Assembly (NCBI RefSeq): GCF_013280595.1 | Contig: NZ_JAAATY010000022.1 | Span: 62,001 to 126,000 of the forward strand | DNA length: 64,000 nt | Origin: Kibdelosporangium persicum | Lineage (GTDB): Bacteria; Actinomycetota; Actinomycetes; Mycobacteriales; Pseudonocardiaceae | Direction: 5' to 3' | In this document: one piece after another, positions 26,026 to 60,263 of the stretch | Position numbering within the stretch: position 1 is the stretch's first letter | How the letters are laid out: each line of letters starts with the position of its first letter | The notes under the pieces: generated by a model | Seen by the model: only the letters and a program-made list of their open reading frames with translations | Database searches by the model: none | What the model was told of the DNA's origin: nothing | Position numbers and translations under genes: made by a program

Positions 26026-26162
26026 GGGCCTTCTCCTTGGATTCTGGTGTGCTCCAACGCGGGATGCCCGCAAGCTTCCCGGCACTGGGCGAGACCGGGC
26101 CAGACCGCTGCCTTGCTAGCCCTGACAGGGCCACGCTCACCGAGAGCGGTTCGATGGCACTG

Positions 26163-26786
26163 TCACACGGCATAGGCGGCAAGGAAGACCCGCACGGCCT
26201 CGTCAGCGAACCGGTCGAGATCGTCCGAGGTGAAGCCGGTGTCGTCGCCGTGGAACATGGCCTTGTTCAACGGGATGGACAGCACCAGCCAGTTGAAGTT
26301 CTGAGCGGCCAGCAGGGGGTCGTCCACCCGCATCAGGCCACGCCGGGCAAGCGCCTCGAACTGGGTGGCGAGCATGGCATGGGCGCGTTCGGCACCGGCG
26401 GCGTACCAGGCACGGGCCAGCTCGGGGAACCGCTCGGCCTCCGCGATGATCAACCGGCGGAGGCGGATCAGGTGCGGCTTGGTCACCTCGACGATGTGCC
26501 TGCGGGCGAACTCGCGCAGGTCGGCCTGGAGATCTTCGCTGTCCGCGAGTGCCTCGACCATCTCGTGGGTCAGCGCCGCGGTCGCGCTGATGTCGTTCCG
26601 GACGACCTCGATGTACAGCCGTTCCTTGTCGGCGAAGTGGTTGTACACCGTCACCTTGGACACGCCGGCGACAGCCGCGACCTCGTCCATGCTGGCGCCG
26701 CCGTATCCCTTGCGCAGGAACAAGGTGCGGGCGGCGTCGAGGATCGCACTCCGCTTGGCCGCGGTTCGGGGGTTCACGTCCGGCAT
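26163..26786 (-). CDS. TetR-family regulator
   Basis: The 207-residue protein has an N-terminal helix-turn-helix (GYGGASMDEVAAVAGVSKVTVYNHFADKERLY) and a C-terminal domain of the AefR-like/TetR_C type (PHLIRLRRLIIAEAERFPEL, then NWLVLSIPLNKAMF). It diverges from an alpha/beta hydrolase gene; a perfect palindrome between the starts is its likely operator. The FMN reductase downstream on the same strand may be part of its regulon. Confidence 0.88.
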   Translation of the reverse strand: MPDVNPRTAAKRSAILDAARTLFLRKGYGGASMDEVAAVAGVSKVTVYNHFADKERLYIEVVRNDISATAALTHEMVEALADSEDLQADLREFARRHIVEVTKPHLIRLRRLIIAEAERFPELARAWYAAGAERAHAMLATQFEALARRGLMRVDDPLLAAQNFNWLVLSIPLNKAMFHGDDTGFTSDDLDRFADEAVRVFLAAYAV

Positions 26787-26789
26787 ATC

Positions 26790-26810
26790 TGAACTGTACA
26801 GTACAGTTCA
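26790..26810. promoter_or_regulatory. Perfect TetR operator palindrome
   Basis: GAACTGTACAGTACAGTTC (26791-26809), extended by one T-A pair on each side, is a perfect odd-length palindrome directly upstream of the TetR start (26786) and 29 bp before the hydrolase start. The sequence is of the AefR-like operator kind. Binding by the adjacent TetR is inferred. Confidence 0.8.
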
Positions 26811-26838
26811 GTTCACATAAAACTTCCGGGGAGCTGCC

Positions 26839-27624
26839 ATGAACGTGAGATCGCACGACGGGACGCAGATCGCGTACGAGCTGCTGGGTACCGGGCAACC
26901 GCTGCTCCTCGTGGCGGGCGCGCTGCAAGGACGGGCTGGTCATCGTCCGTGGGCGGAAGAGCTCGCGCGGCACTTCACCGTGATCAGCTACGACCGCCGA
27001 GGCCGCGGTGACAGCGAGGACACGCCGCCCTACGCCGTCGATCGGGAAGTCGAAGACCTGGCGGCACTCATCGCCGCATGCGGTGGCACGGCCTCGGTCT
27101 ACGGCCACTCATCGGGAGCGGCCCTGGTGATGCACGCCGCCGCCCGCGGACTGCCGATCGACAAGATCGTCCTGCACGAGCCGCCCTTCGGCGACGGCAG
27201 CGACGAAGAACGCCAGCGCGAGGACAAGGAAGCCGCGCACATCGCGGACTTGCTGGCGCAAGGCCGCAACGCCGACGCGGTCAAAACCTTCTACGCCCCG
27301 ATCGGCATGCCGCCCGAGATTCTCGACCACATGGCGAACGACCCTGCCATACAGGCGAACGCACCCACGATCCTGTACGACCCCTACGCGGTCATGAGCC
27401 CTCGAAGCCGGAACGGCATGACGCCCGTCGAGCAGGCCCGCGGCATCACGACACAGGCACTCGTGCTCGCGGGTGACGCAAGCCCGCCGTGGATGATCGA
27501 CGCGAGCAGGCAGATCGGGGAAGCGCTGCCGAACGGGCGTTTCCGGCTACTCGAAGGCCAGCAGCACGTCGTTCCGCCCGACGTACTCACGCCGGTGCTG
27601 ACCGGCTTCTTGCTCGGTCGGTGA
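26839..27624 (+). CDS. Alpha/beta hydrolase, TetR-regulated
   Basis: The 261-residue protein has PLLLVAGALQG (oxyanion strand), YDRRGRGDS, the nucleophile elbow GHSSGA (Ser near residue 95), the acid in LAGDASPPW and the histidine in EGQQHVVPP, a complete triad. The HSSG variant is common in the actinobacterial branch of small-molecule hydrolases. It probably removes a toxic ester or lactone sensed by the divergent TetR; this is inference. Confidence 0.85.
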   Translation: MNVRSHDGTQIAYELLGTGQPLLLVAGALQGRAGHRPWAEELARHFTVISYDRRGRGDSEDTPPYAVDREVEDLAALIAACGGTASVYGHSSGAALVMHAAARGLPIDKIVLHEPPFGDGSDEERQREDKEAAHIADLLAQGRNADAVKTFYAPIGMPPEILDHMANDPAIQANAPTILYDPYAVMSPRSRNGMTPVEQARGITTQALVLAGDASPPWMIDASRQIGEALPNGRFRLLEGQQHVVPPDVLTPVLTGFLLGR

Positions 27625-27632
27625 CCGCTGGG

Positions 27633-28199
27633 TCAGTACTCCACACACCAGCTGTTGCCTTCGTAGATGTAGCTGTGCGGCACGCCCTCGCTGGAGCCGC
27701 CTTCGATCTTCATCTGCACCGTGGCGGACGTCTGGGAGAACATCGTGACCTTGCCGACGACGAACTTGGGGTTGGGCTCCTTCTCGAAGACCTCGTACAT
27801 CGCGCCGGTGTCGCGTTGACGGCACACCAGGGCTTTCGCCGCCGCGGCGTCCTTACGGGCCACGGCATCCGCGTAGGCCTGTGCCACCGCCTTGACCGCT
27901 TCCTCGCCGCCTGTGTTCTGCGCCGTGGTCGGCTTCGCGGTCGGTTTCCGGGTCGGCGTCGGGACGTGCTCGTCGTTGGCCGTCGGCCGCGAAGTCGAGG
28001 CCGTGGGCGTGCCATCCCGGGTGGTCAGCACAATGACCGTGACTACGCCACCGATCAGCAGCAACGCCGCCACGACCACCGCCACGATCAGACCCGTGTT
28101 GCTCTTCCGCGGTGGTGGCGGAGGCGGATACCAACCGGGAGGAGGGGGTCCGTACGGACCAGGCGGCTGCTGCGGTGGCGGGTACGTCACGGTGTGCAT
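27633..28199 (-). CDS. Proline-rich single-pass membrane protein with extracellular domain
   Basis: The 188-residue protein starts with ~30 residues rich in proline and glycine, followed by a lysine/arginine stop and one transmembrane helix (TGLIVAVVVAALLLIGGVVTV). A Thr/Pro linker leads to a ~100-residue outer domain with two cysteines (LVCRQRDTG and NSWCVEY) that may pair, and sequence like the DUF4878/NTF2-type lumazine-binding fold (AVKAVAQAYADAVARKDAAAA). No function is known. It is the last gene of a minus-strand run with 28246 and the HAD gene. Confidence 0.65.
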   Translation of the reverse strand: MHTVTYPPPQQPPGPYGPPPPGWYPPPPPPRKSNTGLIVAVVVAALLLIGGVVTVIVLTTRDGTPTASTSRPTANDEHVPTPTRKPTAKPTTAQNTGGEEAVKAVAQAYADAVARKDAAAAKALVCRQRDTGAMYEVFEKEPNPKFVVGKVTMFSQTSATVQMKIEGGSSEGVPHSYIYEGNSWCVEY

Positions 28200-28245
28200 G
28201 ATGCCCCAGACGGACGCCGCCAGTCCGGCGTTTCCCCTAACGGCG

Positions 28246-29268
28246 TCATTCGATGCCGGAGTACAGCAGTCTCATGTACGCGCTGAAGGAGTCGCTGTCC
28301 TTGCGGTGCTCGGTCCGCCAGAGCTCCAGCTCGGCCTCGGTGATCTCGTCCCCGGTGATCTGCCGCAGGTGCCCGAGCAGGAACCGGTCGTCGTGGCTGG
28401 CCTTGAAGGTCACCTTGTCGTCGGACATCTCGAACTTGCGCATCAGGTCCAGCCGGAACACGGAGTACACAAAGGACTCACGGCCGAACCGGTACGACTC
28501 CGGCAGCTCCATCTGCGCCGACTTCGGCCCGAAGTACCACGAGACGTACACCGCCTGGTCCAGCATGACGTAGCGGTAGACCGCCGTGCTGTCGGTGTAG
28601 AGGATCTCGATCGGGCAGATGTGCCGGCACTCGAACAGCGCCACCACGTTGACCAGCAGTTCCCTGCGCAGGTCCCGCTTGATCTGGTCGATCGTCTGGC
28701 CTTCGTTGCCCACCCAGGACCGCCGGTCGAACGCGCGGCGCTGGATGGCCGCCTCGTTCGCCGGGCCGATCATCGCGATCCGGATGTGCGTCGGGTGGTG
28801 CCGCGCGGCCAGCAACCGGGCGGCGACGTAGCGCGCGCTGGGACCGTTGAACGCGAAGAAGTCCGACTCCTCCAGGTCCCTGGTGACGTCGATGTTGAAC
28901 TCGTCGCCGTAGTTGCTGCCGGGGTTGACCGGCTCGTACGTCTTCTGCGGGACGAACAGCCGGTCGGTCGTGGCCGCGTTGTTCCTGACCTGTTCGCCGA
29001 GTTCCTTGAAGCCGTCCCGGATCGTGCTCTGCACGTTGCGGTCCTGCACCCAGTTGGCCAGTGCCACGAACATCAACGCGAACACCACGCTGGCGATCAG
29101 GTTCAGCCCGATCGCCGAGGAGATGTCCTCGGCGCTCAGATCGTCGTCCAGCGCGGCCAGCAGGACGCCGACCGCCAGCGCGACGCTGCATGCGGTCCCG
29201 AACGAGTACCAGACGAAGGTCCGGCTGAGCGAGCGTGTCCTGCGCTTCGGTTTGTCACTACTTGTCAT
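28246..29268 (-). CDS. Unassigned two-TM membrane protein
   Basis: ATG 29268 overlaps the end of the HAD gene by 11 nt; GTG 29280 is an alternative start. The ~340-residue protein has two membrane helices close to the N-terminus (VWYSFGTACSVALAVGVLLAAL and LIASVVFALMFVALANWV) and a large soluble remainder. That part carries landmarks FFAFNGPSARYVAARLLA, RIAMIGPANEAAI, CRHICPIEILYTDSTAVYRYVMLDQAVYVSWYFG and a final RLLYSGIE. The last pattern resembles the C-terminal half of a degenerate nuclease/phospholipase-like fold, but I cannot assign it. It is coupled to the HAD phosphatase gene. Confidence 0.6.
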   Translation of the reverse strand: MTSSDKPKRRTRSLSRTFVWYSFGTACSVALAVGVLLAALDDDLSAEDISSAIGLNLIASVVFALMFVALANWVQDRNVQSTIRDGFKELGEQVRNNAATTDRLFVPQKTYEPVNPGSNYGDEFNIDVTRDLEESDFFAFNGPSARYVAARLLAARHHPTHIRIAMIGPANEAAIQRRAFDRRSWVGNEGQTIDQIKRDLRRELLVNVVALFECRHICPIEILYTDSTAVYRYVMLDQAVYVSWYFGPKSAQMELPESYRFGRESFVYSVFRLDLMRKFEMSDDKVTFKASHDDRFLLGHLRQITGDEITEAELELWRTEHRKDSDSFSAYMRLLYSGIE

Positions 29269-29947
29269 GCGTGTCACCACTGAGCTCGTCGACGACGGTC
29301 AACGCCCACCGGACCGCGCCGGACAGGCTCGACACGATGGGCACGGCAAGGTCCTGTGCCCTGGCCAGGCTCACTAATGCCTGATCACCAGGGTGGTAGA
29401 ACACGGCGGCGAGGCCACAGGCTTCGGCGGCACGCACGTCGTCGACGTTGTCGCCGACCATGAGCACCCGTTCCGGGCTGAGGTCCAGGTGTGCCAGGTG
29501 CTTGCGCAGATGCGGTTCCTTGAGGTGGATCTCGTCGCCGGTGGTTCCGTCCACCCGGGAGAAGAACCGCGCGATCGGCCCGAGCTGCCGCATCGCCATG
29601 AGCTGACCGTGCGGGTACATCGACAGCAGCGACTGCGTCCGGCCCGCGTCACGCCACATCGTCAACGCGTTCACGGCATCCTTGTGCAGTGTCGCGACGG
29701 CCATCCGGCGGGCGTACGAGAGTTGGAACTGCCGGTCGAGCGTGGCCTGCTCGGCCGCGCTCAACGTCCGTCCGGCCAGGTTGTCGTAGAAGAGGGTGAT
29801 CGGCCGGGTGAAGTGGTCCCGGTACCGCTCCGTGGTCACTTCCGGCAGGCCGGCGGCGGCGAACGCGTCGGCTGTCGCGAGCACGAGCGCGGAGCCGTCG
29901 TCGAACAGCGTGCCGTTCCAGTCCCACACGATATGGTCTATCGCCAA
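29258..29947 (-). CDS. HAD-superfamily phosphatase (phosphoglycolate-phosphatase-like)
   Basis: TTG 29947 is chosen because GGAGGG lies 9 nt upstream and no ATG is available. The 229-residue HAD hydrolase has the nucleophile motif IVWDWNGTLFDD (first Asp), motif II serine in LLSMYPHG, a lysine in IHLKEPHLRKHL and motif III VLMVGDNVDDVRAA. The alpha-helical cap (residues ~20-85) is of the small Cof-free type. It hydrolyses a small phosphate ester. It diverges from the methyltransferase at 29981 with only 33 bp between starts. Confidence 0.83.
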   Translation of the reverse strand: MAIDHIVWDWNGTLFDDGSALVLATADAFAAAGLPEVTTERYRDHFTRPITLFYDNLAGRTLSAAEQATLDRQFQLSYARRMAVATLHKDAVNALTMWRDAGRTQSLLSMYPHGQLMAMRQLGPIARFFSRVDGTTGDEIHLKEPHLRKHLAHLDLSPERVLMVGDNVDDVRAAEACGLAAVFYHPGDQALVSLARAQDLAVPIVSSLSGAVRWALTVVDELSGDTHDK

Positions 29948-29980
29948 GTTCTCGAGCCCTCCGGATGCGATGCTGGGACA

Positions 29981-30685
29981 GTGAGCCGAATCCAAGCCCG
30001 TGCCACGGCGGCGAACCGGGAGCGGTACCAGCACGACGAGGTCGCCGGGTACCTGACTGATCCGTACCACCGCCGTCGGCTCGAACTGGCGATCACGGTG
30101 CTGGCCAAGCACTTGCGGCCCGGCCGGACCGTCGTGGACCTCGGCGCGAACGAAGGGCAGGCGTGCAGCGCGTTGGCCGGCAGAGGTTTCCGCCCGATCG
30201 CCTGCGACATCGTGCCGGACGCACGGCGTGCCGCGCGTGACCGCGGCCTGCTCGCGGTGGGCTTGGACGCCGGTGCCGCCTTGCCGTTCCGGACGGCCAG
30301 CCTGGACGGCATCCTCGCGGGCGAGATCATCGAGCATCTCTACGACCCGGCTTCGCTGCTGCGCGAATGCGGTCGCGTGCTGCGCCCCGGCGGCGTGGTC
30401 GTGATCACCACGCCCAATCTGGCCACGGCACAGGACAGGTTGCGGTTCCTGCTCGGGCGCTCGCCGAGGCAGGTCGACCCGTTCCATGAGTACCTCAGCC
30501 TGCACATCCGCCCGTTCACGTACGAACTGCTGGCCACCGGCCTGCGCAAGGCGGGGCTGACGCCGAAGCGGCCGCTGTCCAACTACGTGGTCTGGCGCAC
30601 GCGGCGCGGTGAGATCCGGTCGGCGTGGGCCGCCCGGCGCTGGCCGACGCTGGGCGGTTCGCTGATCGTGGCGGCGGTGCGCTGA
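29981..30685 (+). CDS. Class I SAM-dependent methyltransferase
   Basis: This 234-residue protein starts at GTG 29981. The SAM motif I is VVDLGANEGQAC, motif II ACDIVPDA, and the UbiE-like EIIEHLYDP and LRPGGVVVITTPN follow. The end of the protein (HIRPFTYELLATGLRKAGL) resembles Methyltransf_11/12 enzymes acting on small molecules. Its target is unknown. It converges on the large STAND gene. Confidence 0.83.
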   Translation: MSRIQARATAANRERYQHDEVAGYLTDPYHRRRLELAITVLAKHLRPGRTVVDLGANEGQACSALAGRGFRPIACDIVPDARRAARDRGLLAVGLDAGAALPFRTASLDGILAGEIIEHLYDPASLLRECGRVLRPGGVVVITTPNLATAQDRLRFLLGRSPRQVDPFHEYLSLHIRPFTYELLATGLRKAGLTPKRPLSNYVVWRTRRGEIRSAWAARRWPTLGGSLIVAAVR

Positions 30686-30692
30686 ACCGCGG

Positions 30693-33600
30693 TCAGAACG
30701 GTTCATCGGCGGGTACCGTGTGCACGTTGCGAAGTACGGTGTCGAGTTCGCCGATCTCGAACCGGCACAACCCGATCACGTGCCAGAACTCGCTGGTGAG
30801 TTTGCCTTCGGTCTTGTACCGCCCGTCCGGGGCCACGGCGGCCCACGCGCCGCGCAACCCGAGCAGGGTCAGCGACAAGCGCGGCCGTGACCGGTCGCCG
30901 ACGTCCCACAACCGGGTCGTCCCGTCGTCGGCCCCGCTGGCCAGCATCCGCCCGTCCGGGCTGAAGTCGATCGACCAGATCCGCCGGGTGTGCCCGGCCA
31001 GCGCGTGCAGGTGCGCACCGGTGCCGAGGTCCCAGAGGTGGATCAGGGTGTCGTCGCCCGCGGTGGCGAACACCTGCCCGTCCGGGCTGATCCGGCCGGT
31101 CCACAGCTTGCCGCGCTGACCGGCCAGGGTGTGCAGGGCCGCGCCGGTGGCCACGTCCCAGAGAATGGCCGTGCCGTCGTTGCTGACGCTGGCCAGCACC
31201 GTGCCGTCCGCGGTGAACTGGACCTCGTACACGCGGTCCGAGTGTCCCAACAGGACCTTCAGGTTCTCACCGGTGTCGGCGTCGAACAGCCGGACCTTCG
31301 AGTCGTCACAACCCGTTGCCACGGTACGGCCGTCCGGGCTGAACGCGACGGAACGAACCCGGCCACGGTGGTCGTGCAGGATCAGTTTCCGCCGCCCGGT
31401 CGGGCGCCACCACAGCCGCACCGAGTCGTCGTCGTTGGCCGTGGCCAGGACGTTGCCGGTGGGGTCGAACGCGCTGGCCCACACGTGGTCGGTCTCGACG
31501 TCCAGTTCCTGGTCGGATTCCCAGCTGCCGAGGTGCCACATGTGCATGCCGCCGTCGTTGCTCGTGGTGGCCAGCAACGGTTTTGTCGGCGAGAACACCG
31601 CGGAGGTCAGTTGGTCGGCCCGCCCCTGCAACGGATCGGTGACCAGCTTGCCCAGGTGCGGGTCCCACACCCGCACGCGACCGTCGTTCCCGCTGACCGC
31701 GAGCAGGTCGCCCGCGGGGTTGAAGTTCACCTTGGTGATCCGGCGGCCGTGGCCGTACAGCTCGTGGATCTGCCTGCCGTCCTCGGGCTCCCAGATCCGT
31801 ACTGTGCCGTCCTTCCCGGTGGTCGCGATCTGACGCGAGTCCGGCCGGAACGCGGGCGGCCACACCGCTCCGCGGTGTGCCTGCACGTCGAACCGTTCCT
31901 GACCGGAAGGGATGTCCCAGACACGCAACCCGCCGTCGGCGTCACCGCTCGCCAGGGCGGTGCCGTCCGGGCTGAAGGCGAGTTGGTACACGGACGCGGC
32001 CTCGGAACGCAGCGGCGACATCCGGGCCTGCGCGCCGGACAGCTGCCATAGCCGGACCGCACCGACCGTGTCGCCCGTGGCCAACAGGGCGCGTTTCGGG
32101 TGGAACTCGACCGAGTAGATGTCGCCGGGATGACCGGTCAGGTGATGGGTGCGGGCGCCGGTGTCTGTGTCCCAAATGGACAGTCTGCCGTTGCGGCCGC
32201 CCGCCGCCAGCAGCCTGCCGTCGTGGCTGAAGCTGAGCGAGTAGATCGCCGCGGCACCCGGCACGTTCATCCGGTGTGCCTCGGTCCCCGTGACCAGGTC
32301 CCAGATCCGTACGGTCCCGGCGTTGTCCGCGGTGGCGAGCAACGCGGTGTCCGGCGCCGGGTGGAAGGCCAGTGCCCAGATCCGCTCGATGTGGCCCGGC
32401 AACTGCTGCAGCACCTGCCCGTCGGGCATGGCGCGTACCCAGACGACACCGGCCGCGTCGCCGTACGCGACCAGTTTGCCGCGACGATCCTGTGTCAGCG
32501 GCCAGACCGGCGCCTCATGGTCGGTGAACACGGCGTGCTGTTCGCCGGTCGACGGGTCCCAGCAGCGCACAGTGCCGTCCGCGGACCCGGTGACCAACGC
32601 ACTGGCGCCGTACGTCACCGCGTACACACGGTCGAGATGCCCCTTCAAGGTCCGGATCGGCAGGCCTTTGTCCGTGTCGCACAACAACACGCCGCCGTCC
32701 CCGTTGCCCACCGCGAGCAGGGAACCGTCCGTGCTGTACGCCAGGGGCCGGGGCAGCCGGCCGACCTCGAAGCCGAACGGCACGCCGACCCCGGACGGCT
32801 GCAACCCGACGAGCACCGGCTGCCCTGGCGCCACGGCCGCGCCGCCCAACTGGGCGGACGTCCGCAAAGCGTTGTCAGCGGTGACGTTCAGCAGGGCCGC
32901 GCGTGACCACCGGCATCCCGTGGCTTCCACACCACGCAGATCGGTTCCGGAGAGCCGTGCCTCGGTCAGGTCCGCCCCGGTGAGATCCGCGCCGGACAAC
33001 ACGGCGTCGTCCAGCCGGACGCGCCTGAGCTGGGCGTCCCGCATGATCGCGCGGGACAGCTTGGTCCCGATCAGCCGTGCGTCGGTCAGGTCCGCGCCGG
33101 TCAGGTCGACTCCGCTGAGATCCCGGTACGAGAAGTCCTCGCCGCGCAGCGACGCACCCCGCAGATCCGCCTTGGCCGGTGTCCGCAACCGCTTGCTCAC
33201 CTTGAGGGCGTTGGTGTTCGCGATGTGCTCGCTGTCCGGGTGCATGGCCCAGGCGCGCAGCCGGTGCGGATCGGCGAGGTCGCACAGGAAGTCGACGGTC
33301 AGCTGGGACAGCACCTGGCGGCCGAGCAGCGGCGGATTCTCGTCGCCACGGTTGAACTGCGCGGCGATCTCGTTGGCCACCAGCCACTCCATCACCGAAC
33401 CGTGGATGAAGCCGAACATCTCCTCGGTCCGCACCAGCAGGCTGCCCGCGCCGACCGCGTGCGTGGCCTGCGGCGGGGACAGCGGCGTGTCGGCCAGGCC
33501 GGTCAACGCCTGCGCGATCTCGGCCACGTCGTCCAGCCGCAGCAGGACCTCGTTGGACTCCCACATCCGCACGGCCAACGTGGTGACCGCGTGCCAGAGC

Positions 33601-36600
33601 TCGTCGATCGACAGACCGGTGGGGCTGCCCCGCATACCGTGCACCCGCCGGTACTCGAAGGCGAGCCACGAGCTCAGAACCTCCTGGTAGAGCCCGGCCG
33701 CGCTCATCGCCTGCCGTGCCCTGGCCGCCGCCGCGAGCCGGTCGGCGTCCAGATCGGCGACGAAGCTGAGCATCCGCGGGTTGCGCGCCAGGCCGCCCAG
33801 GTCCTCGATCCGGCTGACCAGATCGAGCCGTTCGTGCGCGGCCCGCTGGTCGTGGCCGTACCGGTTGACCAGGTACCTGCCCATCTGTTCCGGGGTGAAG
33901 TCCTCCAGTTGCAGAATCCGGCGGTGCGCCAGGACACCGACCCGTTCGCCGAGCGCGGTACGGACCTGCTCGTCGTTCTGGAAGTGCTGCGTCCGGCTGC
34001 TCACCACGATCTTGGCCTGCCCCTGCGCCGCGGCGAGCAGCGTCTGCAGGTGGTCCGCGGCACGCTCGTAGGTGACCCTGCTGGCCAGTTCGTCGAACCC
34101 GTCGAACAACAACACGACTCGGCCTTGCCGCAACAGGTAAGTGAAAGCGCGCAGGTCGATCCGCGCCTCGCCGTGGTTGGCCAGGTGCGCGGCCACCAAC
34201 GTCTCGACCCGGTGCGCCTTGTCCAGCGTGCGCAGCTCGATCAGGATCGGGGTCACTCCCGGCAGCCTGACGGGCAGCTCCATCGCGAGCTTGCGCATGG
34301 CGAACGTCTTGCCCCGGCCGAAGTCGCCCATCAGCAGGATGAAACTGCCTTCGTCCGCCGACAGCAGCTCGATCATCTCGGCCACGACGTCCTGACGCAC
34401 GGACGAGTCCACCCCTGCCACCTCACGGAACCGCTGCGGCACATACAGATCCGGTGGGTAGACGAGGTCCTTGCGCAGCCGTTCGGTCTGTGCGGTCACG
34501 TAGTCGCGCAGATCCAGCAGCCCCTGGAACTCGGCGAAACTGCGTACCCGCACGCCGTCGCGCACCGCGTCCTCCAGCAGCGCGGTTCCCGGGTTCGGGC
34601 CCTGGTAGACGAGTTCGGCCCCCTGTTCGGTGCCGCTGCCCCGGAGCACCCGGACGAACGCGTCCACGTCGTCACCGCTCAGCGCGCCAACGTGAGCCGC
34701 CACCCGGAACTGGTGCACCGCCTCCCCATCGGGATAGGTGACCAGCAGCGACGCCGGCCGTCCGGCCAGCCGGCGGATCCGGGCGCCCGGGTAACGGACC
34801 TCGCACACCTCGGTGATCCGTTGCAGCAACAGGCTGACCGGGTCTTCGCCCGGTTCCACGGTGGGTTGCGGTTCCTGGTCCAACGGGCCGCTGTCGGCGG
34901 CGGGGAACGTCCGATCCACCGCGTGCCAACGACGGTTCACGCGAACCGCCTCGGCTGGGGACCCGGCTCCCAGCGACCAGGACGTCAGGCCGTCACGGGT
35001 GATGGTCAGGATCTGCGCACCATTCCGCGGCGGACGCACGACAGGCACGCCCGAGGGCAGTTCACCCGCGGGCCCGGACGCGCCTTCGGTGTGCAGCAAC
35101 AGGTTCAGGTGCGGCGCGAGCACCCGGTCGAGTTCCGCGGTGTCACGCAGCTTGTCCGCGGCCGGGTCCTGCGTCGACGTCGGCGCGTGCTGCAGGACCC
35201 CGATCCGCAGGTGGCCGGACTGCGCGAAGCCGGCCATGCTCTGCGCGAACCAGTCCAGTTGCGCGGGACCGAGCCAGCCCGGCTCGTCGAGCGACAGGTG
35301 GGTGTGCGAGATCGTGGAGTTGAGCCCCGCCACGGCGATTCTCAGATCGGCGACGGCGTACAGCGTCCACGGCAGGCCGTCGACGAACACCGGGCTGTCG
35401 ACGTCCGGGTACAGCTGGCCGAACAACCGGCTGAAGTGCCGCCACTTGCGGAAGTACGGCGCCTGCGGCTCGATTCCGTCCGCCCGGCAGTCGGCGAAGT
35501 ACGCTTCACACGCCGCCACCGTGATGTCGCCGATGCCGGGAACGACCACGACCCGGTTGGCTTCGAGGCCGAGCATGGAGCGCAAGCCGGTGATGAAGCT
35601 CATCGCCTGCTCGAACTGCGCGGGCGATCCGGACTCCGTCAGGCTGCCGCCCACCACGATCAGATCAGGGTCAGCCGCCTCGTCGAGCGCGGACCGCAAC
35701 TGCGCCAACCGTTCGACCGGTCCGTCCGGTCCGGCGCCGAACCGCGGGGCGGCGACATGCAGGATGCTCACCTGCTGCCGCTCGCCGGACGTGTGCGCGA
35801 TCGAGGGCGGGAACCGCGTCGCCTGCGTGGGAACCCGGTTCACGGCAGGCGGTTCCGTCTGCGGCAGCCGTGGATACCTGGGGGTGTCGTCCGGCTTCGC
35901 GCGGCCGGACAACGCATGCCGGATGCGGTCGAGCAGCCGGGCCCGTGCCACGGCGGGATCGGTCAACCCGACCAGGTCGACAAACGTGATCGGCGCCAGC
36001 AGCCCGTCGAGCACGACTTCCTCGATCCGGACAGGCAGCAGCTTGGTCGTCGAGTCGTTGTGCGCGGCCTGTAGCGCGGCGATCCACTCCATCTTGCCGT
36101 ACTTGGAGCCCAGGTAGTTCTGCGACAGCACCGCGATGACCGCGGACGCCTCCCGGATGCCCCGGTCGATGAACTCGAAGAAGTTCGTGCCCGGCACGAA
36201 GTCCCAGGACTGGATCATCACGTGGTAGCCGGCGTCCTCGAGTTCGTGGGCGATCCACGTCGCCCAGTCCTCGTTGGCCAGCGAGTAGCTGATGAAGAAG
36301 TCGACCGTGCCCGAGTCGGGCGGGCGCGGCGCCCTGGCCGGGAGGACCACCGCGGCACCAGGGTCCACATCGGACGCCTGGTCGGCCGCCTTCGTGGTGA
36401 CCGACGCGGTCAGCGTGGCCGCTTCGTCCGCGGGGACACCGAAGACGTGCGCGAGCACTTTGAGCTCGTGCACACCGACCGGCCTGAGCTGGTTCTCGAT
36501 CTCGGTGAGCGCGTCCTCGGTCAGGGAATGGCCGCCCGCCACCTCGCATTCACGTGCCAGGCGCGTGAGCGACCAGCCAAGCCGCTCCCGTCGCGTGCCG

Positions 36601-36641
36601 ACCCAGGTCGCCAGCGTCGCTTTGTCCGGCTGCTGTCGCAC
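30693..36641 (-). CDS. STAND NTPase: TIR - pseudo-phosphoesterase - NACHT - pentapeptide - WD40
   Basis: A 1,982-residue signalling/defence protein. Residues 1-75 look like an XRE-type DNA-binding fold (WVGTRRERLGWSLTRLARECE). A TIR domain spans ~112-245: DFFISYSLANEDWATWIAHEL, IMQSWDF-like strand, SAVIAVLSQNYLGSKYGKMEW with Glu185 at the NADase position. Residues ~288-560 follow a calcineurin-like phosphoesterase, but its metal motifs are altered (LHVAAPRFG, VVGGSLTESG, VVPGIGDI, LQHAP). Residues ~600-715 may be a degenerate nuclease-like domain. NACHT follows: GDFGRGKT (772-779) and VVLLFDGFDEL. Then come pentapeptide repeats (DLTGADLTDARL, ~1155-1250) and about 15 WD40 repeats to ~1950. 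WD40 sensing, STAND oligomerisation and TIR NAD+ cleavage are inferred. It follows the 2H phosphoesterase gene by 34 bp. Confidence 0.88.
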   Translation of the reverse strand: MRQQPDKATLATWVGTRRERLGWSLTRLARECEVAGGHSLTEDALTEIENQLRPVGVHELKVLAHVFGVPADEAATLTASVTTKAADQASDVDPGAAVVLPARAPRPPDSGTVDFFISYSLANEDWATWIAHELEDAGYHVMIQSWDFVPGTNFFEFIDRGIREASAVIAVLSQNYLGSKYGKMEWIAALQAAHNDSTTKLLPVRIEEVVLDGLLAPITFVDLVGLTDPAVARARLLDRIRHALSGRAKPDDTPRYPRLPQTEPPAVNRVPTQATRFPPSIAHTSGERQQVSILHVAAPRFGAGPDGPVERLAQLRSALDEAADPDLIVVGGSLTESGSPAQFEQAMSFITGLRSMLGLEANRVVVVPGIGDITVAACEAYFADCRADGIEPQAPYFRKWRHFSRLFGQLYPDVDSPVFVDGLPWTLYAVADLRIAVAGLNSTISHTHLSLDEPGWLGPAQLDWFAQSMAGFAQSGHLRIGVLQHAPTSTQDPAADKLRDTAELDRVLAPHLNLLLHTEGASGPAGELPSGVPVVRPPRNGAQILTITRDGLTSWSLGAGSPAEAVRVNRRWHAVDRTFPAADSGPLDQEPQPTVEPGEDPVSLLLQRITEVCEVRYPGARIRRLAGRPASLLVTYPDGEAVHQFRVAAHVGALSGDDVDAFVRVLRGSGTEQGAELVYQGPNPGTALLEDAVRDGVRVRSFAEFQGLLDLRDYVTAQTERLRKDLVYPPDLYVPQRFREVAGVDSSVRQDVVAEMIELLSADEGSFILLMGDFGRGKTFAMRKLAMELPVRLPGVTPILIELRTLDKAHRVETLVAAHLANHGEARIDLRAFTYLLRQGRVVLLFDGFDELASRVTYERAADHLQTLLAAAQGQAKIVVSSRTQHFQNDEQVRTALGERVGVLAHRRILQLEDFTPEQMGRYLVNRYGHDQRAAHERLDLVSRIEDLGGLARNPRMLSFVADLDADRLAAAARARQAMSAAGLYQEVLSSWLAFEYRRVHGMRGSPTGLSIDELWHAVTTLAVRMWESNEVLLRLDDVAEIAQALTGLADTPLSPPQATHAVGAGSLLVRTEEMFGFIHGSVMEWLVANEIAAQFNRGDENPPLLGRQVLSQLTVDFLCDLADPHRLRAWAMHPDSEHIANTNALKVSKRLRTPAKADLRGASLRGEDFSYRDLSGVDLTGADLTDARLIGTKLSRAIMRDAQLRRVRLDDAVLSGADLTGADLTEARLSGTDLRGVEATGCRWSRAALLNVTADNALRTSAQLGGAAVAPGQPVLVGLQPSGVGVPFGFEVGRLPRPLAYSTDGSLLAVGNGDGGVLLCDTDKGLPIRTLKGHLDRVYAVTYGASALVTGSADGTVRCWDPSTGEQHAVFTDHEAPVWPLTQDRRGKLVAYGDAAGVVWVRAMPDGQVLQQLPGHIERIWALAFHPAPDTALLATADNAGTVRIWDLVTGTEAHRMNVPGAAAIYSLSFSHDGRLLAAGGRNGRLSIWDTDTGARTHHLTGHPGDIYSVEFHPKRALLATGDTVGAVRLWQLSGAQARMSPLRSEAASVYQLAFSPDGTALASGDADGGLRVWDIPSGQERFDVQAHRGAVWPPAFRPDSRQIATTGKDGTVRIWEPEDGRQIHELYGHGRRITKVNFNPAGDLLAVSGNDGRVRVWDPHLGKLVTDPLQGRADQLTSAVFSPTKPLLATTSNDGGMHMWHLGSWESDQELDVETDHVWASAFDPTGNVLATANDDDSVRLWWRPTGRRKLILHDHRGRVRSVAFSPDGRTVATGCDDSKVRLFDADTGENLKVLLGHSDRVYEVQFTADGTVLASVSNDGTAILWDVATGAALHTLAGQRGKLWTGRISPDGQVFATAGDDTLIHLWDLGTGAHLHALAGHTRRIWSIDFSPDGRMLASGADDGTTRLWDVGDRSRPRLSLTLLGLRGAWAAVAPDGRYKTEGKLTSEFWHVIGLCRFEIGELDTVLRNVHTVPADEPF

Positions 36642-36675
36642 GGTACCTCCCCGCCCGTTGACACGGACACACCGA

Positions 36676-37395
36676 TCAAGCTCCGTCGTCCACGGCGACC
36701 GCGGCGCCTAACTGTGCTGTCCCGTACAGAGTCGTGCATGTGCCATAGGGACTCATTCCGTACACGGCCAGTTCGGTCAGCGTCCCGCTGAAGTCCCGCG
36801 CCGGTGGCAGGCCGCTGAGATCCACCCGGAACGTCGGGTCGACCGGCCACGCCAACGTCACATGCGGGTTGAACCGGTCCCGTCCGTCGTCGTCGGTCAC
36901 TTCGTCGTAGCCGAACCGCCGCAGTTGCGCCCGCTGGCCAGGATCCGTGCGCGGGTCGTCGATCAGGTCACGGAGCCGCAGTCCGGCCGGGTCTGTCTCG
37001 CGAAGACGTCCCTGCCGCAGCGGCTCCACCTCCGCGATCACCGCGCGTTGCAGATCGATCCATTTCGCTGTCTTGCGAAAAAACAGTTCCGGCGCGCCGA
37101 ACGGATTGTGCCGATACTCCTGCCCTTCGGCGGGCAGAACCGGGAGCGTGCCGGCGAGCCGCCGGGTCGCGTTCACCACTTCGCCGATTTCGTCCTCGGC
37201 GACGGCGAGCATGAAGACCGAGACGTGCGGCTCGCACACCCCGGCCCCCACCGAGGTGAACGGCTGCCCCAGCCGGAAGTGCGCGGCATGACCGTGTTCG
37301 GCCATCCGGCCGACCATCCGGTCACCGAGTTCGAGCGAGGCCCGCCGCAACTCCGGGGGCAGAACAACGACGACATCCAGGACCACCAGTGTCAT
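36676..37395 (-). CDS. 2H-family phosphoesterase, partner of the TIR-STAND gene
   Basis: The 239-residue protein has the two His-x-Ser/Thr motifs of 2H (LigT-like) phosphoesterases: EPHVSVFML near residue 62 and FNPHVTLAW near residue 175. The two halves give the bilobal fold. AAAGGA precedes ATG 37395 by 8 nt. Family members cut 2',3'-cyclic phosphates, cyclic ADP-ribose-type esters or cyclic oligonucleotides; phage anti-CBASS Acb1 is a 2H enzyme. It is the first gene of a two-gene unit with the TIR-STAND gene, so it might degrade or edit the signal made by the TIR domain. That link is a hypothesis. Confidence 0.8.
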   Translation of the reverse strand: MTLVVLDVVVVLPPELRRASLELGDRMVGRMAEHGHAAHFRLGQPFTSVGAGVCEPHVSVFMLAVAEDEIGEVVNATRRLAGTLPVLPAEGQEYRHNPFGAPELFFRKTAKWIDLQRAVIAEVEPLRQGRLRETDPAGLRLRDLIDDPRTDPGQRAQLRRFGYDEVTDDDGRDRFNPHVTLAWPVDPTFRVDLSGLPPARDFSGTLTELAVYGMSPYGTCTTLYGTAQLGAAVAVDDGA

Positions 37396-37636
37396 CGATG
37401 ATTCCTTTCCGAACGGAAGAGCGACTTCAGCGGCAAAGGAGCACGGCGGCTTCGGGCGGATAGTCTAGCTACTTACCACTAGCGCAGGAAGCGGGTTTTC
37501 GTTTCGCATTCGACTGGAAGTACGGTCGATATTCATGCATTCGGGTGAGTGACGCATTCTGAGGCGTGGGCTAGCGCTTACCATGTCGGTCAGAACTGAC
37601 CAAGACGCGCTCACAGCCGAGGGTGGCTGTGGGACG

Positions 37637-38929
37637 ATGACGGCTATGCCAACGCCAGGAAGGCGGTCAGCTGCCCAGATCAACGAGGACGAGGCCGCGG
37701 AACCATCCGGGGAGCCGCCCTCCTCGATGACGCGCTCCCGGTGGCGTTTGCCTCGCCTGCATGCTCTCGACTGGATAGCGATCGGACTGCTGCTCGTCGG
37801 CTGTCTGTGTGTCGCCTTCGGCGCGTTGCCGGTGGCCGACGCGCGGGCCACGGTCGTCCGGCTCGTGCCGTTGTTGCTGTTCCTCGGCTCCGTGATCATC
37901 CTGGCCGAGCTGACCGCGGCGGCCGAGGTGTTCGACGTCGTCGCCATCCGGCTGTCGATCATCGGCCGCGGCCGGTACGTCCTGCTGTTCCTGCTGTGCG
38001 TGACGCTGGCGTCGGTCACCACGATCACGCTGAACCTGGACACCACGGCGGTGCTGCTGACGCCGGTCATCCTCGCGCTGGCGTCCACATTGGGCATATC
38101 GCCGCTGCCGCTGGCGATGACCACGGTGTGGTTGTCGAACACGGCCAGCCTGTTGCTGCCGGTCTCCAACCTGACGAACCTGTTGGCGGCCGACCGGGTC
38201 GCGCTGTCGCCGTCGGAGTTCGCCGCCAAGATGTGGGCGCCGCAACTGGCCGCGATCGTCGTCACGGCGGCATGCCTGTGGATCTGGTACTGGCGGCGAG
38301 GCCGGCGCGGCGGGCAGCTCCGCTATGAGCTGCCGCGCAGGCGGGAGCCCGCGGACAAGCCGTTGTTCACCGTGGCCGCGGTGGTCTGCCTGGTTTTTGT
38401 GGTCGGGATTCTGGTCGGCGTGCCGATCGGGGTGGCGTCGTCGATCTCGGCGGGCGCGCTGCTGATCGCGTTTCTCGTGCGCAGGAAGTCGGAGCTGCGC
38501 TGGGCGCTCATCCCGTGGCGGCTGCTGGTCTTCGTGATCGGGCTGTTCCTGGTGATCGACACGATCAGCCTGCACGGCCTGGACGCGCTGCTGCACGGCC
38601 TGATGGGAACCGACGACAACGCACTCGGTGCCGCCCGCGCCGCGGCAGCGGGCGCCGGGCTGTCGAACGTGGTGAACAACCTGCCCGCGTACGTCGCGGG
38701 TGAGTCCGTGATCCCGGTGGACAACCACACCCAGTTGCTGGCGCTGTTGGTCAGCACGAACGTCGGGCCGGTGATCACGCCGTGGGCGTCATTGGCGACG
38801 TTGCTGTGGTACGAACGGTGTCACGCTTCCGGCGTGAAGGTGCCGATGGGGCGGTTCATGTGGACCGGAGCGATCCTCGCGGTGACCGCACTCGTCGCTT
38901 CCGTCGGCGTCCTGGTGGTGATGAGCTAG
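37637..38929 (+). CDS. SLC13/ArsB-like ion transporter
   Basis: I prefer ATG 37637; ATG 37583 and 37646 are also in frame. The ~430-residue protein has a 45-residue hydrophilic lead and about 11 membrane helices. Two half-repeats are visible: LFLGSVIILAELTAAAEVFDV with NLDTTAVLLTPVILALAS, and VVNNLPAYVAG with TNVGPVITPWASLATLLW. These are typical of the ion-transporter superfamily (ArsB, NhaD, CitM). No arsR or arsC is nearby, so arsenite is not supported over other anions. The promoter region shared with the 2H phosphoesterase gene (37396-37636) shows no clear operator. Confidence 0.78.
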   Translation: MTAMPTPGRRSAAQINEDEAAEPSGEPPSSMTRSRWRLPRLHALDWIAIGLLLVGCLCVAFGALPVADARATVVRLVPLLLFLGSVIILAELTAAAEVFDVVAIRLSIIGRGRYVLLFLLCVTLASVTTITLNLDTTAVLLTPVILALASTLGISPLPLAMTTVWLSNTASLLLPVSNLTNLLAADRVALSPSEFAAKMWAPQLAAIVVTAACLWIWYWRRGRRGGQLRYELPRRREPADKPLFTVAAVVCLVFVVGILVGVPIGVASSISAGALLIAFLVRRKSELRWALIPWRLLVFVIGLFLVIDTISLHGLDALLHGLMGTDDNALGAARAAAAGAGLSNVVNNLPAYVAGESVIPVDNHTQLLALLVSTNVGPVITPWASLATLLWYERCHASGVKVPMGRFMWTGAILAVTALVASVGVLVVMS

Positions 38930-38930
38930 G

Positions 38931-39123
38931 TTAGGTCGTGTTTCGAATGTCCCGGTCGATGAGAGTCTGCCCCGGCCGGAGGCCGGAATCGGCTCGGTGG
39001 GGCGGTTCCTGGCGTCGCCGCGGGATCGCCGCGAATACTGGTTGTCTTTGGGCGGTCCCGCGGTGGCGTCAGGGGCCGCATCCGGCCCGGCTATCGCGAT
39101 CGGGCATTTGAAACACGGCCTAG
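38931..39123. mobile_element. MITE-like element, copy A
   Basis: A 193-bp non-coding element with imperfect terminal inverted repeats of ~22 bp: left TTAGGTCGTGTTTCGAATGT, right (complement) CTAGGCCGTGTTTCAAATGC. It shares nearly the whole sequence with the copy at 56155-56322, but holds ~25 extra bases near 38967-38995. It starts 1 bp after the transporter stop, and its right end supplies the TAG stop codon of the cupin gene on the other strand. CTAG ends fit elements moved by an IS5-type transposase; no such transposase is in the window. Confidence 0.75.
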
Positions 39124-39797
39124 CCGTTGCCGGTCATGGCGTGATCGGCGATGGCTCTGCTCGCCTCCTCAGCGGCGGCTATGGTCTCCTCATCGCCGCA
39201 GGTTTCCCGCCGGACCTGGTGATCGGCGACGTCCAGGGCGGCCAGCGAACGGTCGACGGCTTCCGGGTTGGTCAGTCCGAGCGCGACCGTGACGACCAGT
39301 TCGTCGCGGTCCGGCACGACCGTCTGGTGGAAAACACCAGCCGGCAACTGGTAACAATCGCCGGAACCGTAAACGTCGACGGTTGCCGTCTCATAGCGGA
39401 CCAGCCGCCCGGTCGCCCGCAACCGGTCACCGTCCGCGCTGCTGTGCACTTCGAAAACCTGGTGCGTCGGCGCCTCGGTGTCGTCGATCACCCGGATGAC
39501 CTCGTTGTGCAACTCCCCGGTGAGCACACAACTCAACAGTTCCCAGCTGTGACAATGCGTCGGTAACGTTGTCAGCGATGTGTGCCACCGCGGCCCCCAT
39601 ACGTGAATGCACACACCCTCATCACCTTGCCGATGCACGGGCAGGCAGAGAAAACCCAGTGGGTGTTTTACCGCCCTGATCGGGCGGCGCCCCGACGCCA
39701 CCGCGCCGAGCACGTCGACAGCCCATTGTTCGACCTGGTCGACGGAACGCTTCTTGATCGCCTCGGACAGTTCGAAGTACAGCGTCATACCGTACAC
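39120..39797 (-). CDS. Cupin-fold protein (cysteine-dioxygenase-like)
   Basis: The ~225-residue protein (ATG 39797, or 39788; neither has a clear ribosome site) has metal-binding features of a cysteine-dioxygenase-type cupin: THCHSWELLSCVLTGELHNEV (two His) and the strand pair QLPAGVFHQTVVPDRDELVV with a third His. Relatives oxidise thiols or act as sensors. The last codons and the TAG stop lie within the right end of the MITE-like element, so the C-terminus (after about EETIAAAEEAS) may have been reset by the insertion. Confidence 0.65.
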   Translation of the reverse strand: MYGMTLYFELSEAIKKRSVDQVEQWAVDVLGAVASGRRPIRAVKHPLGFLCLPVHRQGDEGVCIHVWGPRWHTSLTTLPTHCHSWELLSCVLTGELHNEVIRVIDDTEAPTHQVFEVHSSADGDRLRATGRLVRYETATVDVYGSGDCYQLPAGVFHQTVVPDRDELVVTVALGLTNPEAVDRSLAALDVADHQVRRETCGDEETIAAAEEASRAIADHAMTGNG

Positions 39798-39898
39798 CCG
39801 GAGAAGAGGATCATTACGGAGAGTATATCCGACATGACGCCGCTAATACCACCGCGTTAATCGGGTGCCGTTCTGTGTCCTTTTCCCTTGACACGGCA

Positions 39899-41674
39899 TC
39901 AGCCGCCGCAGCGGCCGGTGAACACGTCGGCCTTGCCGTCACCGGTGAAATCGGCGAGGGCGAGGCTGTTCTGCGGGCACGACCCAGTCCGCAGCTGCGC
40001 CCACGACTTGGCGCCGCCGGACGAGAAGTACCAGCCGCTGCTGTCCGCACGGAACACGTCGGTCCGGCCGTCGCCGTCAAGGTCGCCGAACTTCAGCGCC
40101 GAGGCCGGCGTGCCGGAGAGCGCAAGCGGTTGCCATGGGCTGACGCCGCCTGCCGAATAACGCCAGCGACTGTCGACCATGGCGAACACGTCGGTCTTCC
40201 TGTCGCCGTCGAAGTCACCGAAGCCCAGCGATTCCACCGGCAGGCTCGCTCCGGCCAGCGGTGCCCACGATGCCCGGCCGGCCGCGGAGAAGTACCACTT
40301 TCCGTTGTCCACCTTGAACACGTCCGTCCGGCCGTCGCCGTCGAAGTCGCCGAACCGCAGGTCGGCCAACGGCACGGCCGAAGTGGCCATCGGCTGCCAT
40401 GAGGTCACCGCGCCCGAGGAGAACATCCACTGCTCTCCCTGCACGGTGAACGTGTCCGTCCGGCCGTCACCGTCGAAGTCACCGAACCGCAGGTTGTGCC
40501 GGGTCGTGCCGGACTGCGCCGCGGGAACCCAACGGCCGGTGCCGCCCGGCGAGTAGTACCAGCGGGCTCCGGTGGCGCGCAGGACGTCCGTCCGGCCGTC
40601 GCCGTCGAAGTCGCCCAGCCCGATCTCGGAGACGTCGAAGGTGTACGGCGCGAGCGGGGCCGGCGCCGCCGTTCCGCCGTCGGAAAGCTGCCACGCCACC
40701 GGTTTCGGCGACGTGTGACAGTTGGTGGTCGTGGTGTTGTACGTGTTCGGCCCGATGTTCATGTTGCCGGTGAACAAGGTCTGCTGGATCGCGGTACTCG
40801 CGGACGTGTGCGCGAAGCAGTTGCCGGACACGTAGGCGCCGGTGGCAGGCCGGCCACGAACCTTGACCGCGGTCTCCACTTTGGACCGGAAGGTGTTGTG
40901 CTTGATGTGGATGACGTCACCGGCGTACGGCGCGCCGTTGCCCAGGGCCTCGTCCTCGCCGTGCATGTCGAAGCCGTGGCTGCGAGCGTTGTCCACCACG
41001 AGGTTGTATCTGGCCTCGTAACGCTGGGTTCGAATCCCGTTGCCCGCGATGGCGTGGCGGTTCTGCGTGAAGGTGTTGTACTCGATGACCGCGCTGGAGT
41101 GGCCCACCAGCACGATGCCGTACCCCAAGCCGGTGCGCCGGTTGTGGTGGACGTTGTTACGGCTGTACCGCGCCTCGATGGTGTCGCGGATGACGACGGC
41201 GCCGTGCGACCAGGCGGACAACTCGTTGTTGTCCACGGTCAGATCGGACGCACTGACCGCTTCGATACCCCGCGAATTGTCGTACTGGTACGCGTTGTCC
41301 CTGATCTCCGAGTCGGGGCCGCGCAGCCGCAGGCCGGTGACCCGGGTGCCGCTGCCGGTCACGCGGAACTGTGCCCACGACTCGTTGCCTTGGCCAAGGT
41401 CCAGCTCGGTGTTGTACAGCAGCGCGCCTGGTGCGCCGCTCGTGCCGCGGTCGCTGGCCAGCGTCACCCCGGCCGGGATCACGATGCCCTTGTGGCCCGT
41501 CAGGTCGATGGACGCCGTACCGGCGACGAACACAGTGTCACCGGCTGTCGCGTTGGCCAAGGCCGCGATCAGCTCGTCCCGCGTGCCGACCGTGACGGTT
41601 CCGGCCGCTGTGGCCGGGGCCGCCAGCGTCGCGGTGACCAGCAAGGCACCCGTGAGCACACCCAGAATCCGCAT
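39899..41674 (-). CDS. Secreted right-handed beta-helix protein with FG-GAP/VCBS repeats
   Basis: ATG 41674 follows GGGGGATCG. The 591-residue protein has a Sec signal peptide (LGVLTGALLVTATLAAPATAA, cut after ATAA). Residues ~25-330 are a pectate-lyase-like parallel beta-helix (VAGTASIDLTGHKGIVIPAG, GLRLRGPDSEIRDNAY, VIEYNTFTQNRHAI). Residues ~345-591 hold six FG-GAP-type repeats with the calcium motif GDFDGDGRTDVF. The helix part may be a polysaccharide lyase or a structural binder. No catalytic residues can be pinned down. The repeats suggest an extracellular, calcium-stabilised protein. Confidence 0.82.
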   Translation of the reverse strand: MRILGVLTGALLVTATLAAPATAAGTVTVGTRDELIAALANATAGDTVFVAGTASIDLTGHKGIVIPAGVTLASDRGTSGAPGALLYNTELDLGQGNESWAQFRVTGSGTRVTGLRLRGPDSEIRDNAYQYDNSRGIEAVSASDLTVDNNELSAWSHGAVVIRDTIEARYSRNNVHHNRRTGLGYGIVLVGHSSAVIEYNTFTQNRHAIAGNGIRTQRYEARYNLVVDNARSHGFDMHGEDEALGNGAPYAGDVIHIKHNTFRSKVETAVKVRGRPATGAYVSGNCFAHTSASTAIQQTLFTGNMNIGPNTYNTTTTNCHTSPKPVAWQLSDGGTAAPAPLAPYTFDVSEIGLGDFDGDGRTDVLRATGARWYYSPGGTGRWVPAAQSGTTRHNLRFGDFDGDGRTDTFTVQGEQWMFSSGAVTSWQPMATSAVPLADLRFGDFDGDGRTDVFKVDNGKWYFSAAGRASWAPLAGASLPVESLGFGDFDGDRKTDVFAMVDSRWRYSAGGVSPWQPLALSGTPASALKFGDLDGDGRTDVFRADSSGWYFSSGGAKSWAQLRTGSCPQNSLALADFTGDGKADVFTGRCGG

Positions 41675-41747
41675 CGATCCCCCAGGATCTCGAAGAAACA
41701 CCCCATGTAACCACAGCGTCGGCTACGATGGCGTCATCATCTGGATG

Positions 41748-60103: not shown

Positions 60104-60175
60104 GGCCGATTCGGCCAACGGTCAGGCCGCCATGCTTTCACCATGGAAACCCGGGTTCGACTCCCGGATCGGCTG
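60104..60175 (+). tRNA. tRNA-Glu (anticodon UUC)
   Basis: Acceptor GGCCGAT pairs ATCGGCT (one G-U). D-stem GGCC/GGCC, anticodon stem CCATG/CATGG with loop CTTTCAC (TTC), and T-arm CCGGG-TTCGACT-CCCGG are all present. No CCA is encoded. This is the first member of an array of eight tRNAs. Confidence 0.85.
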
Positions 60176-60191
60176 CGGTTCTCTGTTTCGG

Positions 60192-60263
60192 GGCGCGTTG
60201 GTCCAGCGGAACGGACATTGGTCTCTCACACCGAAGACACGGGTTCGACTCCCGTACGCGTCA
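60192..60263 (+). tRNA. tRNA-Glu (anticodon CUC)
   Basis: Acceptor GGCGCGT/ACGCGTC, D-stem GTCC/GGAC, anticodon stem TTGGT/ACCGA around CTCTCAC (CTC), T-arm ACGGG-TTCGACT-CCCGT. No encoded CCA. It differs from the neighbouring Glu tRNA in all stems. Confidence 0.85.

Follow-up and report, generated by a model that had tools for sequence, protein, structure and literature searches.

Why should a small phosphoesterase be encoded directly ahead of a large, immune-type NTPase? The question is raised by a stretch of 64,000 nucleotides (here termed the window) from the actinomycete Kibdelosporangium persicum (contig NZ_JAAATY010000022.1, positions 62,001 to 126,000), in which a gene for a 2H phosphoesterase-like protein (36676..37395) precedes a gene for a STAND protein with TIR, NACHT and WD40 domains (30693..36641). 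Both reading frames are open and lie on the minus strand, 34 bp apart, as described in an original prediction made from the window alone, in which the two genes were described as a two-gene unit that could be a STAND immune system with its own signal-degrading or signal-editing enzyme. Comparison among genomes indicates that the 2H-STAND association is real and conserved; it represents an apparently undescribed combination on a known chassis. In a literature search of titles and abstract starts, with subscription journals mostly outside its scope, no 2H gene accompanying a TIR-NACHT-WD40 protein was described among the matches listed.

Linkage and co-inheritance of the 2H and STAND genes

In 11 genomes from three genera (g1, g22 and g45), the 2H gene is located directly upstream of the STAND gene and in the same orientation, with gaps of 31 to 155 bp between them, as measured from the starts of the open reading frames. 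In two genomes of the same genus the gaps are 34 and 31 bp, and a GGAGG sequence precedes the STAND start. Other arrangements were observed elsewhere. In genus g3, the 2H gene is situated at the 3' side of the STAND gene in convergent orientation; the overlap is 64 bp in both G863 and G882, whereas the two genes of G853 are 1.6 kb apart. In four genomes of family f104 the order is STAND, transporter (a membrane protein described below) and 2H, all on one strand, and in G1222 of family f103 the 2H gene lies behind the transporter gene, with the STAND gene divergent. The maintenance of linkage through such varied gene orders is the strongest argument for a tie between 2H and STAND.

The phylogenetic trees of the two proteins agree in their main clades, although support is weak for a number of forks in the 2H tree, and some sequences are on long branches. 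The pairwise distances of the STAND and 2H proteins from 19 genomes are correlated (Mantel r 0.88, p 1e-4). At the level of sequence, both co-inheritance and rearranged linkage are established, and the simplest history would be an old association, followed by rearrangements and losses.

The distribution of the two genes was analyzed in several samples. Among 297 genomes of the family, 2H was detected in at least 14, and a protein combining TIR, calcineurin-like phosphoesterase (MPP), iREase and NACHT domains in at least 19; both counts are lower bounds, because scoring was confined to a portion of the first-look candidates in each genome, and the 19 include G973, in which a contig end cuts the gene before its TIR. 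All 14 of the 2H-bearing genomes also carry the STAND gene, within 1.6 kb of 2H, whereas a STAND gene is present in 5 of the other 283 (Fisher p 3e-20, uncorrected for relatedness). A gene present in 14 of 297 genomes can hardly be a housekeeping gene, and this alternative, which the original prediction had named as a way for it to fail, was discarded. In a sample of the class, a 2H match was found in 7 of 296 genomes, including that of the window, and in five of the six others a STAND gene lies no more than 1.4 kb away. The sample of the order gave matches in 8 of 397 genomes, consisting of six true homologues (the window genome among them) and two weak, partial matches that were dropped. Five of 150 relatives gave a match, one of them weak, and in the phylum sample, which was searched with a single-protein query, there were 2 in 396, again including one weak match. 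Weak partial matches in G021, G554 and G362 (E 3e-4 to 5e-4) were dropped before the homologues were counted. In total, true 2H homologues were recognized in 22 genomes, in 19 of which a STAND gene is located within 1.6 kb, so that the expectation that 2H would stay with the STAND gene in related genomes was borne out despite the changing gene orders.

Three minor observations concern the same genes. The TIR-MPP query matched 26, 30 and 32 times in three f104 genomes, for the most part over the TIR region only. A second TIR protein gene, encoding 475 aa (L086:11195-12622), is located ∼1 kb behind the 2H gene in G1122. In a genome of another family, a 2H homologue without a STAND gene (L010:12853-14606) lies ∼100 bp behind a gene that appears, by eye, to be ATP-grasp-like.

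Domain organization of the STAND and 2H proteins

The window STAND protein (1982 aa, GTG start) has a more elaborate modular structure than originally described. The TIR, NACHT and WD40 domains had been recognized, whereas a helix-turn-helix (HTH) domain, a decayed MPP, an NA-iREase3 domain, pentapeptide repeats and the transporter gene next to 2H had been overlooked. The domain make-up is established by profile matches. At the N-terminus, an HTH domain (residues 16-77, 36411..36596; all coordinates in this paragraph are on the minus strand) matches PF13560 (HTH_31) with 31.1 bits against a cut-off of 27; it was not seen at the N-terminus of some relatives. It is followed by the TIR domain (residues 115-234, 35940..36299; PF13676, TIR_2, 108 bits against 28). 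The glutamate predicted at residue 185 was located there, is kept in all 22 STAND proteins whose TIR is not interrupted by a contig end, and is presumably catalytic, by analogy. The next region (∼residues 290-560, 34962..35774) appears to be a catalytically decayed MPP with degraded metal motifs, matched by NF053862 with E=4.5e-11, far below the cut-off of that model. It fails the cut-off of PF00149 (Metallophos), and its identity is derived from the less decayed relatives G013 and G853, which still pass it. An NA-iREase3 domain, i.e., a NACHT-associated inactive REase (residues 604-711, 34509..34832; PF22739, 116.1 bits against 27), precedes the NACHT NTPase (residues 768-928, 33858..34340; PF05729, 43.8 bits against 26.7). 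Pentapeptide repeats (∼residues 1157-1258, 32868..33173; 81.2 bits against 20.2) and WD40 propellers (∼residues 1421-1914, 30900..32381; PF00400) complete the protein. The scores for TIR_2, WD40, NA-iREase3 and the window 2H derive from a Pfam scan with 25 of 68 families listed.

The Walker A motif GDFGRGKT (residues 772-779) and the Walker B motif LLFDGFDE (from residue 844) are at the predicted positions. Walker B is present in 24 of 24 aligned STAND proteins, as is the GKT of Walker A, with small changes preceding it in G013 and G973. The earlier estimate of about 15 WD40 repeats was close; Pfam distinguishes 13 stretches, and two seven-bladed propellers would give 14. The protein has both the N-terminal effector (TIR_2) and the C-terminal repeat sensor by which STAND/NACHT proteins are recognized. 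Only one DNA tandem array, of 29 bp, was detected in 30600-37700, and there is thus no sign in that interval of recent propeller amplification. A Thoeris system was not recognized: the ThsB model gave E=0.0018 only, and a Pfam scan of four window neighbours matched neither SIR2 nor SLOG. As regards CBASS, the scan of these four genes showed no CD-NTase.

The 2H gene product (239 aa, ATG start) carries both of the HxS/T motifs that had been noted, HVS at residues 57-59 and HVT at 178-180, and in the alignment H57, S59, H178 and T180 are invariant in 22 of 22 homologues. Its assignment as a 2H phosphoesterase rests on these two motifs together with weak profile matches to the 2H clan: the window protein scores 15.7 bits, below the Pfam cut-off of 27, its homologue in G1230 reaches 27.2 bits against the same cut-off, and 16 of 16 members of the family match PF13563 at E≤1, the best at 2.8e-5. 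The profile of the family against PDB gave as its top match the C-terminal domain of rotavirus VP3, which is weak (E=0.0031), followed by a 2'-5' RNA ligase (E=1.4). For 2H, the ratio of non-synonymous to synonymous substitution rates (dN/dS) was compared between five pairs of species; four of these gave 0.19-0.22, where purifying selection is clear, and the fifth gave 0.68, indicating weak constraint; for the STAND gene it is 0.15-0.26 in four species pairs, and both genes look to be under selection. No relative of 2H was found in the phage collection, in plasmids or in viral contigs (15 pattern matches in the latter, none confirmed). No match was obtained in PADLOC, and in PHROG there were only marginal matches of single members of the 2H family; membership of the phage 2H family (CBASS/Acb1) was not indicated by either.

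Replacement of a lost MPP activity by the 2H enzyme was considered and ruled out: the first metal motif of the MPP, compared with the canonical form, is decayed in all 27 of the chassis proteins aligned, regardless of whether 2H is present.

The transporter and the exchange of the effector

Divergent from the 2H gene, a gene on the plus strand (37583..38929) encodes a membrane transporter of the ArsB/CitMHS type (PF03600, 121 bits; PF02040, 91 bits), whose sole match in PDB is an arsenical pump membrane protein (E=1e-26). In all 18 family STAND loci in which that side is uncut, including four without 2H, the transporter gene adjoins the STAND gene or is separated from it by 2H only. It also occurs at all five STAND loci of the class sample and in Nonomuraea gerenzanensis. 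The transporter is the third constant member of the STAND module, and the description of a closed two-gene unit did not hold: besides the constancy of the transporter, 5 of the 19 family STAND genomes have no 2H match genome-wide.

The transporter is not exclusive to STAND loci. Some homologue is encoded in 41 of 100 family genomes sampled, and a near full-length one with at least 50% identity in 12 of the 100 (G081 has a fragment). Five of these 12 lie by a TIR-STAND gene, two (from one genus) end a VMAP-C/EAD2-AAA-WD40 operon and one is divergent from a gene for a WD40-KAP protein, while at the remaining four loci no conflict gene was recognized among the matches listed. This suggests that transporters of this type may be general membrane partners of WD40 conflict NTPases. 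Loci in which the same transporter type closes the VMAP-C/EAD2-AAA-WD40 operon are L119:2512-10338, identified by Pfam, and L120:8706-16560, which matches it gene by gene at 61-84%; that with the divergent WD40-KAP NTPase is L121:8590-13788.

A sister group of proteins (L065, L066, L067 and L132-L141) carries the same MPP-iREase-NACHT-WD40 chassis with a trypsin-like N-terminus in place of the TIR. All 13 of the TIR-less chassis proteins with long reading frames are of this form, one by a Pfam match to Trypsin_2 and the other 12 by similarity to that one; the count leaves out three matches to the MPP region that are shorter and lack a TIR, namely one in G913 and the second ones in G028 and in G944. 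Neither 2H nor the transporter was found in any of the 13 trypsin-form loci, each of 18 to 19 kb. The presence of 2H in 14 of 19 TIR forms versus 0 of 13 trypsin forms (p 3e-5) may reflect a single evolutionary switch. The absence of both genes from the trypsin form suggests that they serve the output of the TIR rather than the sensor.

Candidate roles of the 2H enzyme and the wider neighbourhood

With a confidence a little under even, we favour a conflict module of immune type, built around the TIR-STAND protein and comprising three members that recur together, in which 2H would be an accessory phosphoesterase and the transporter a membrane partner. By analogy with known STAND and TIR proteins, the WD40 propellers would sense a trigger, ATP binding by the NACHT domain would lead to oligomerisation, and the clustered TIR domains would acquire activity towards NAD+ or nucleotides. 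Adaptor functions could fall to the decayed MPP and iREase domains, and the ArsB/CitMHS-type transporter could serve as a membrane arm, an unusual one if so. The 2H enzyme would hydrolyse a phosphodiester or a 2',3'-cyclic phosphate arising directly or indirectly from TIR activity, and would thereby limit or end the response. It is in this conditional sense that we infer an immune role, a 2H substrate and a direction of control.

The substrates of 2H enzymes are phosphodiesters or cyclic phosphates (PMC9117128, PMC9503650). Better candidates here than cyclic ADP-ribose (cADPR) are 2',3'-cyclic nucleotides, ADP-ribose cyclic phosphate and RNA ends. Some plant TIRs make 2',3'-cyclic nucleotides, although the receptor SNC1 was found to do without this activity (PMC9706416). 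A more specific version, which we consider quite unlikely, is that the TIR acts on nucleic acid or NAD+ to produce a messenger of the 2',3'-cyclic-phosphate type that gates the transporter as membrane effector, and that 2H destroys this messenger, sets the threshold and ends the response, giving a receptor with its own off-switch. Little is known of the means by which bacteria hold their TIR receptors in check between infections or once an infection is over. A 2H gene kept with one TIR-STAND lineage across several rearrangements, and absent from the protease form, offers a concrete candidate for the handling of such signals by the host itself. It could further point to the product of the TIR, given the narrow range of bonds open to 2H enzymes.

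Several observations weigh against such a module. No 2H match was found in the genomes of the STAND carriers G988, G908, G013, G869 and G973, in a search in which 8 of 24 genomes matched, and in Nonomuraea gerenzanensis the STAND and transporter genes occur with no 2H in a stretch of 19.8 kb. Two f104 genomes have further TIR and MPP matches elsewhere, yet a single 2H each. Conversely, three 2H genes lack an adjacent STAND gene: in G099, 2H stands alone in a 19.9-kb stretch, with no STAND match genome-wide; in G759, likewise without a STAND match, a distant ArsB-type homologue is located ∼1.4 kb from 2H; and in G1139, 2H lies directly behind a shortened transporter gene with no STAND gene in 17 kb, and only TIR-only or small partial matches were found elsewhere in the genome. 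The pair is not obligate. The tests of effector exchange and co-occurrence rest on few independent events, and the structure model of 2H, built from two sequences (the window and L007), reached a predicted local distance difference test (pLDDT) score of only 38. The partner of 2H may even be the transporter, because 2H directly follows it in families f103 and f104, and the extended neighbourhood, with inositol-monophosphatase (IMPase), cupin-like, methyltransferase and HAD genes, looks metabolic.

These last points lead to the alternative that survives best, although we consider it rather unlikely, namely that the transporter, 2H, IMPase-like, cupin-like and methyltransferase genes constitute a pathway that takes up or exports a small molecule and processes phosphoesters, with the locus guarded or regulated by the STAND protein, so that 2H would be metabolic rather than immune. 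The position of 2H immediately behind the transporter gene, the recurrence of IMPase and cupin-like genes in families f1 and f104 and in Nonomuraea, the persistence of transporter and 2H without STAND in G1139 and the distant transporter homologue near 2H in G759 would all agree with such a pathway. Against it, transporters of this type are also encoded in further conflict operons, which lack 2H, the 13 trypsin-type loci are devoid of the transporter and 2H set, 2H heads the STAND operon in genera g1, g22 and g45, and an IMPase homologue is absent from window positions 22000-48000.

An alternative in which 2H heals RNA ends is unlikely; it would open the 2',3'-cyclic phosphates that RNases leave behind in the course of an infection, and would so protect or reset the cell. 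RNA-end processing is a standard role of 2H enzymes (PMC9503650), and the best PDB matches of 2H, weak as they are, point the same way; but no RNase, RNA ligase or KptA was recognized in the loci read (most of whose neighbours were viewed without a profile scan), and 2H is linked to a TIR protein. Plain synteny, whereby 2H and STAND would be long-standing neighbours with no joint function, is improbable: vertical inheritance and the conserved flanks of the 11-genome clade would suit it, but the linkage has come through no fewer than three changes of order and is found in three families, and in the genomes sampled 2H is rare and occurs mostly where a STAND gene is present. The degradation or editing of cADPR by 2H, as originally proposed, is very improbable, for although the genes are adjacent and bacterial TIRs often produce cADPR isomers (PMC10022894), 2'/3'cADPR is ribose-ribose linked and exceptionally stable and requires a glycosidase for its breakdown, no degrading enzyme having been known before that of a phage (PMC13232231), and it offers none of the bonds on which 2H enzymes usually act.

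The immune-type module that we favour shares features with several known systems. In the TEP1/DUF4062-NACHT-WD40 proteins and Swarozyc, a TIR-like NADase stands next to a NACHT domain, with WD40 repeats in TEP1, and NADase-driven abortive infection has been shown for Swarozyc (PMC13174449). In contrast to these, the window STAND protein has a TIR_2 domain (which fits the region; no DUF4062-specific search was made), a decayed MPP, iREase3 and pentapeptides, with 2H and the transporter as partners. Bacterial STAND conflict proteins and MoxR-vWA ternary systems of multicellular bacteria similarly combine variable N-terminal effectors (TIR, calcineurin-like and others) with NTPases and repeats (PMC7159879, PMC8195603); searches for the term "2H phosphoesterase" gave nothing in either paper, nor did those for ArsB, citrate or antiporter in PMC7159879. 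Acb1, a phage anti-CBASS nuclease with 2H-type HxT/HxT catalysis, provides a precedent for the cutting of immune nucleotides by a 2H enzyme, but ∼97% of its relatives are predicted phage proteins (PMC9117128), whereas the window 2H adjoins an immune-type gene. For macro domains, regulation of TIR anti-phage systems via cADPR has been predicted (PMC9503650); the idea of a signal-handling enzyme encoded with a TIR system is shared, but fold and chemistry differ from those of the window 2H.

Other genes recur around the module. A cupin-like protein (by eye; 39120..39797, minus strand) matched nothing in Pfam, NCBIfam or PDB; its homologues accompany the module in Nonomuraea as well as in f1 and f104. 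At the 3' end of the STAND gene, a methyltransferase is encoded on the plus strand (29900..30685, start approximate; Methyltransf_11, 56.2 bits), with a homologue in 11 of 11 loci with upstream 2H and beside 2H in L083. A protein that appears, by eye, to be membrane-bound (28246..29280, minus strand; no Pfam match) is syntenic in 8 of these 11 loci as fetched. Its homology to another apparently membrane-anchored family beside the module (L052:2868-3779) was considered and dropped (hhalign probability 0.6%). An IMPase gene, with below-cut-off resemblance to CysQ nucleotidases among others, accompanies the module in some loci. A NUDIX gene and a macro-like gene (below cut-off) are found near a STAND-transporter-2H set (L083:11547-13347). 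The IMPase, NUDIX and macro-like neighbours would fit nucleotide processing but are not constant. No Rfam family exceeded its gathering score over 26000-42000, and a promoter scan of 36500-37800 gave no sigma-70-type site and one terminator-like site, at chance level. Further along, window positions 39899-41701 encode a secreted-looking protein of 600 aa with FG-GAP-blade-like repeats and a beta-helix-like N-terminus (by eye only), and eight tRNA genes (Glu, Glu, Leu, Leu, Gln, Ser, Lys and Cys) are clustered within 769 bp on the plus strand at 60104-60872.

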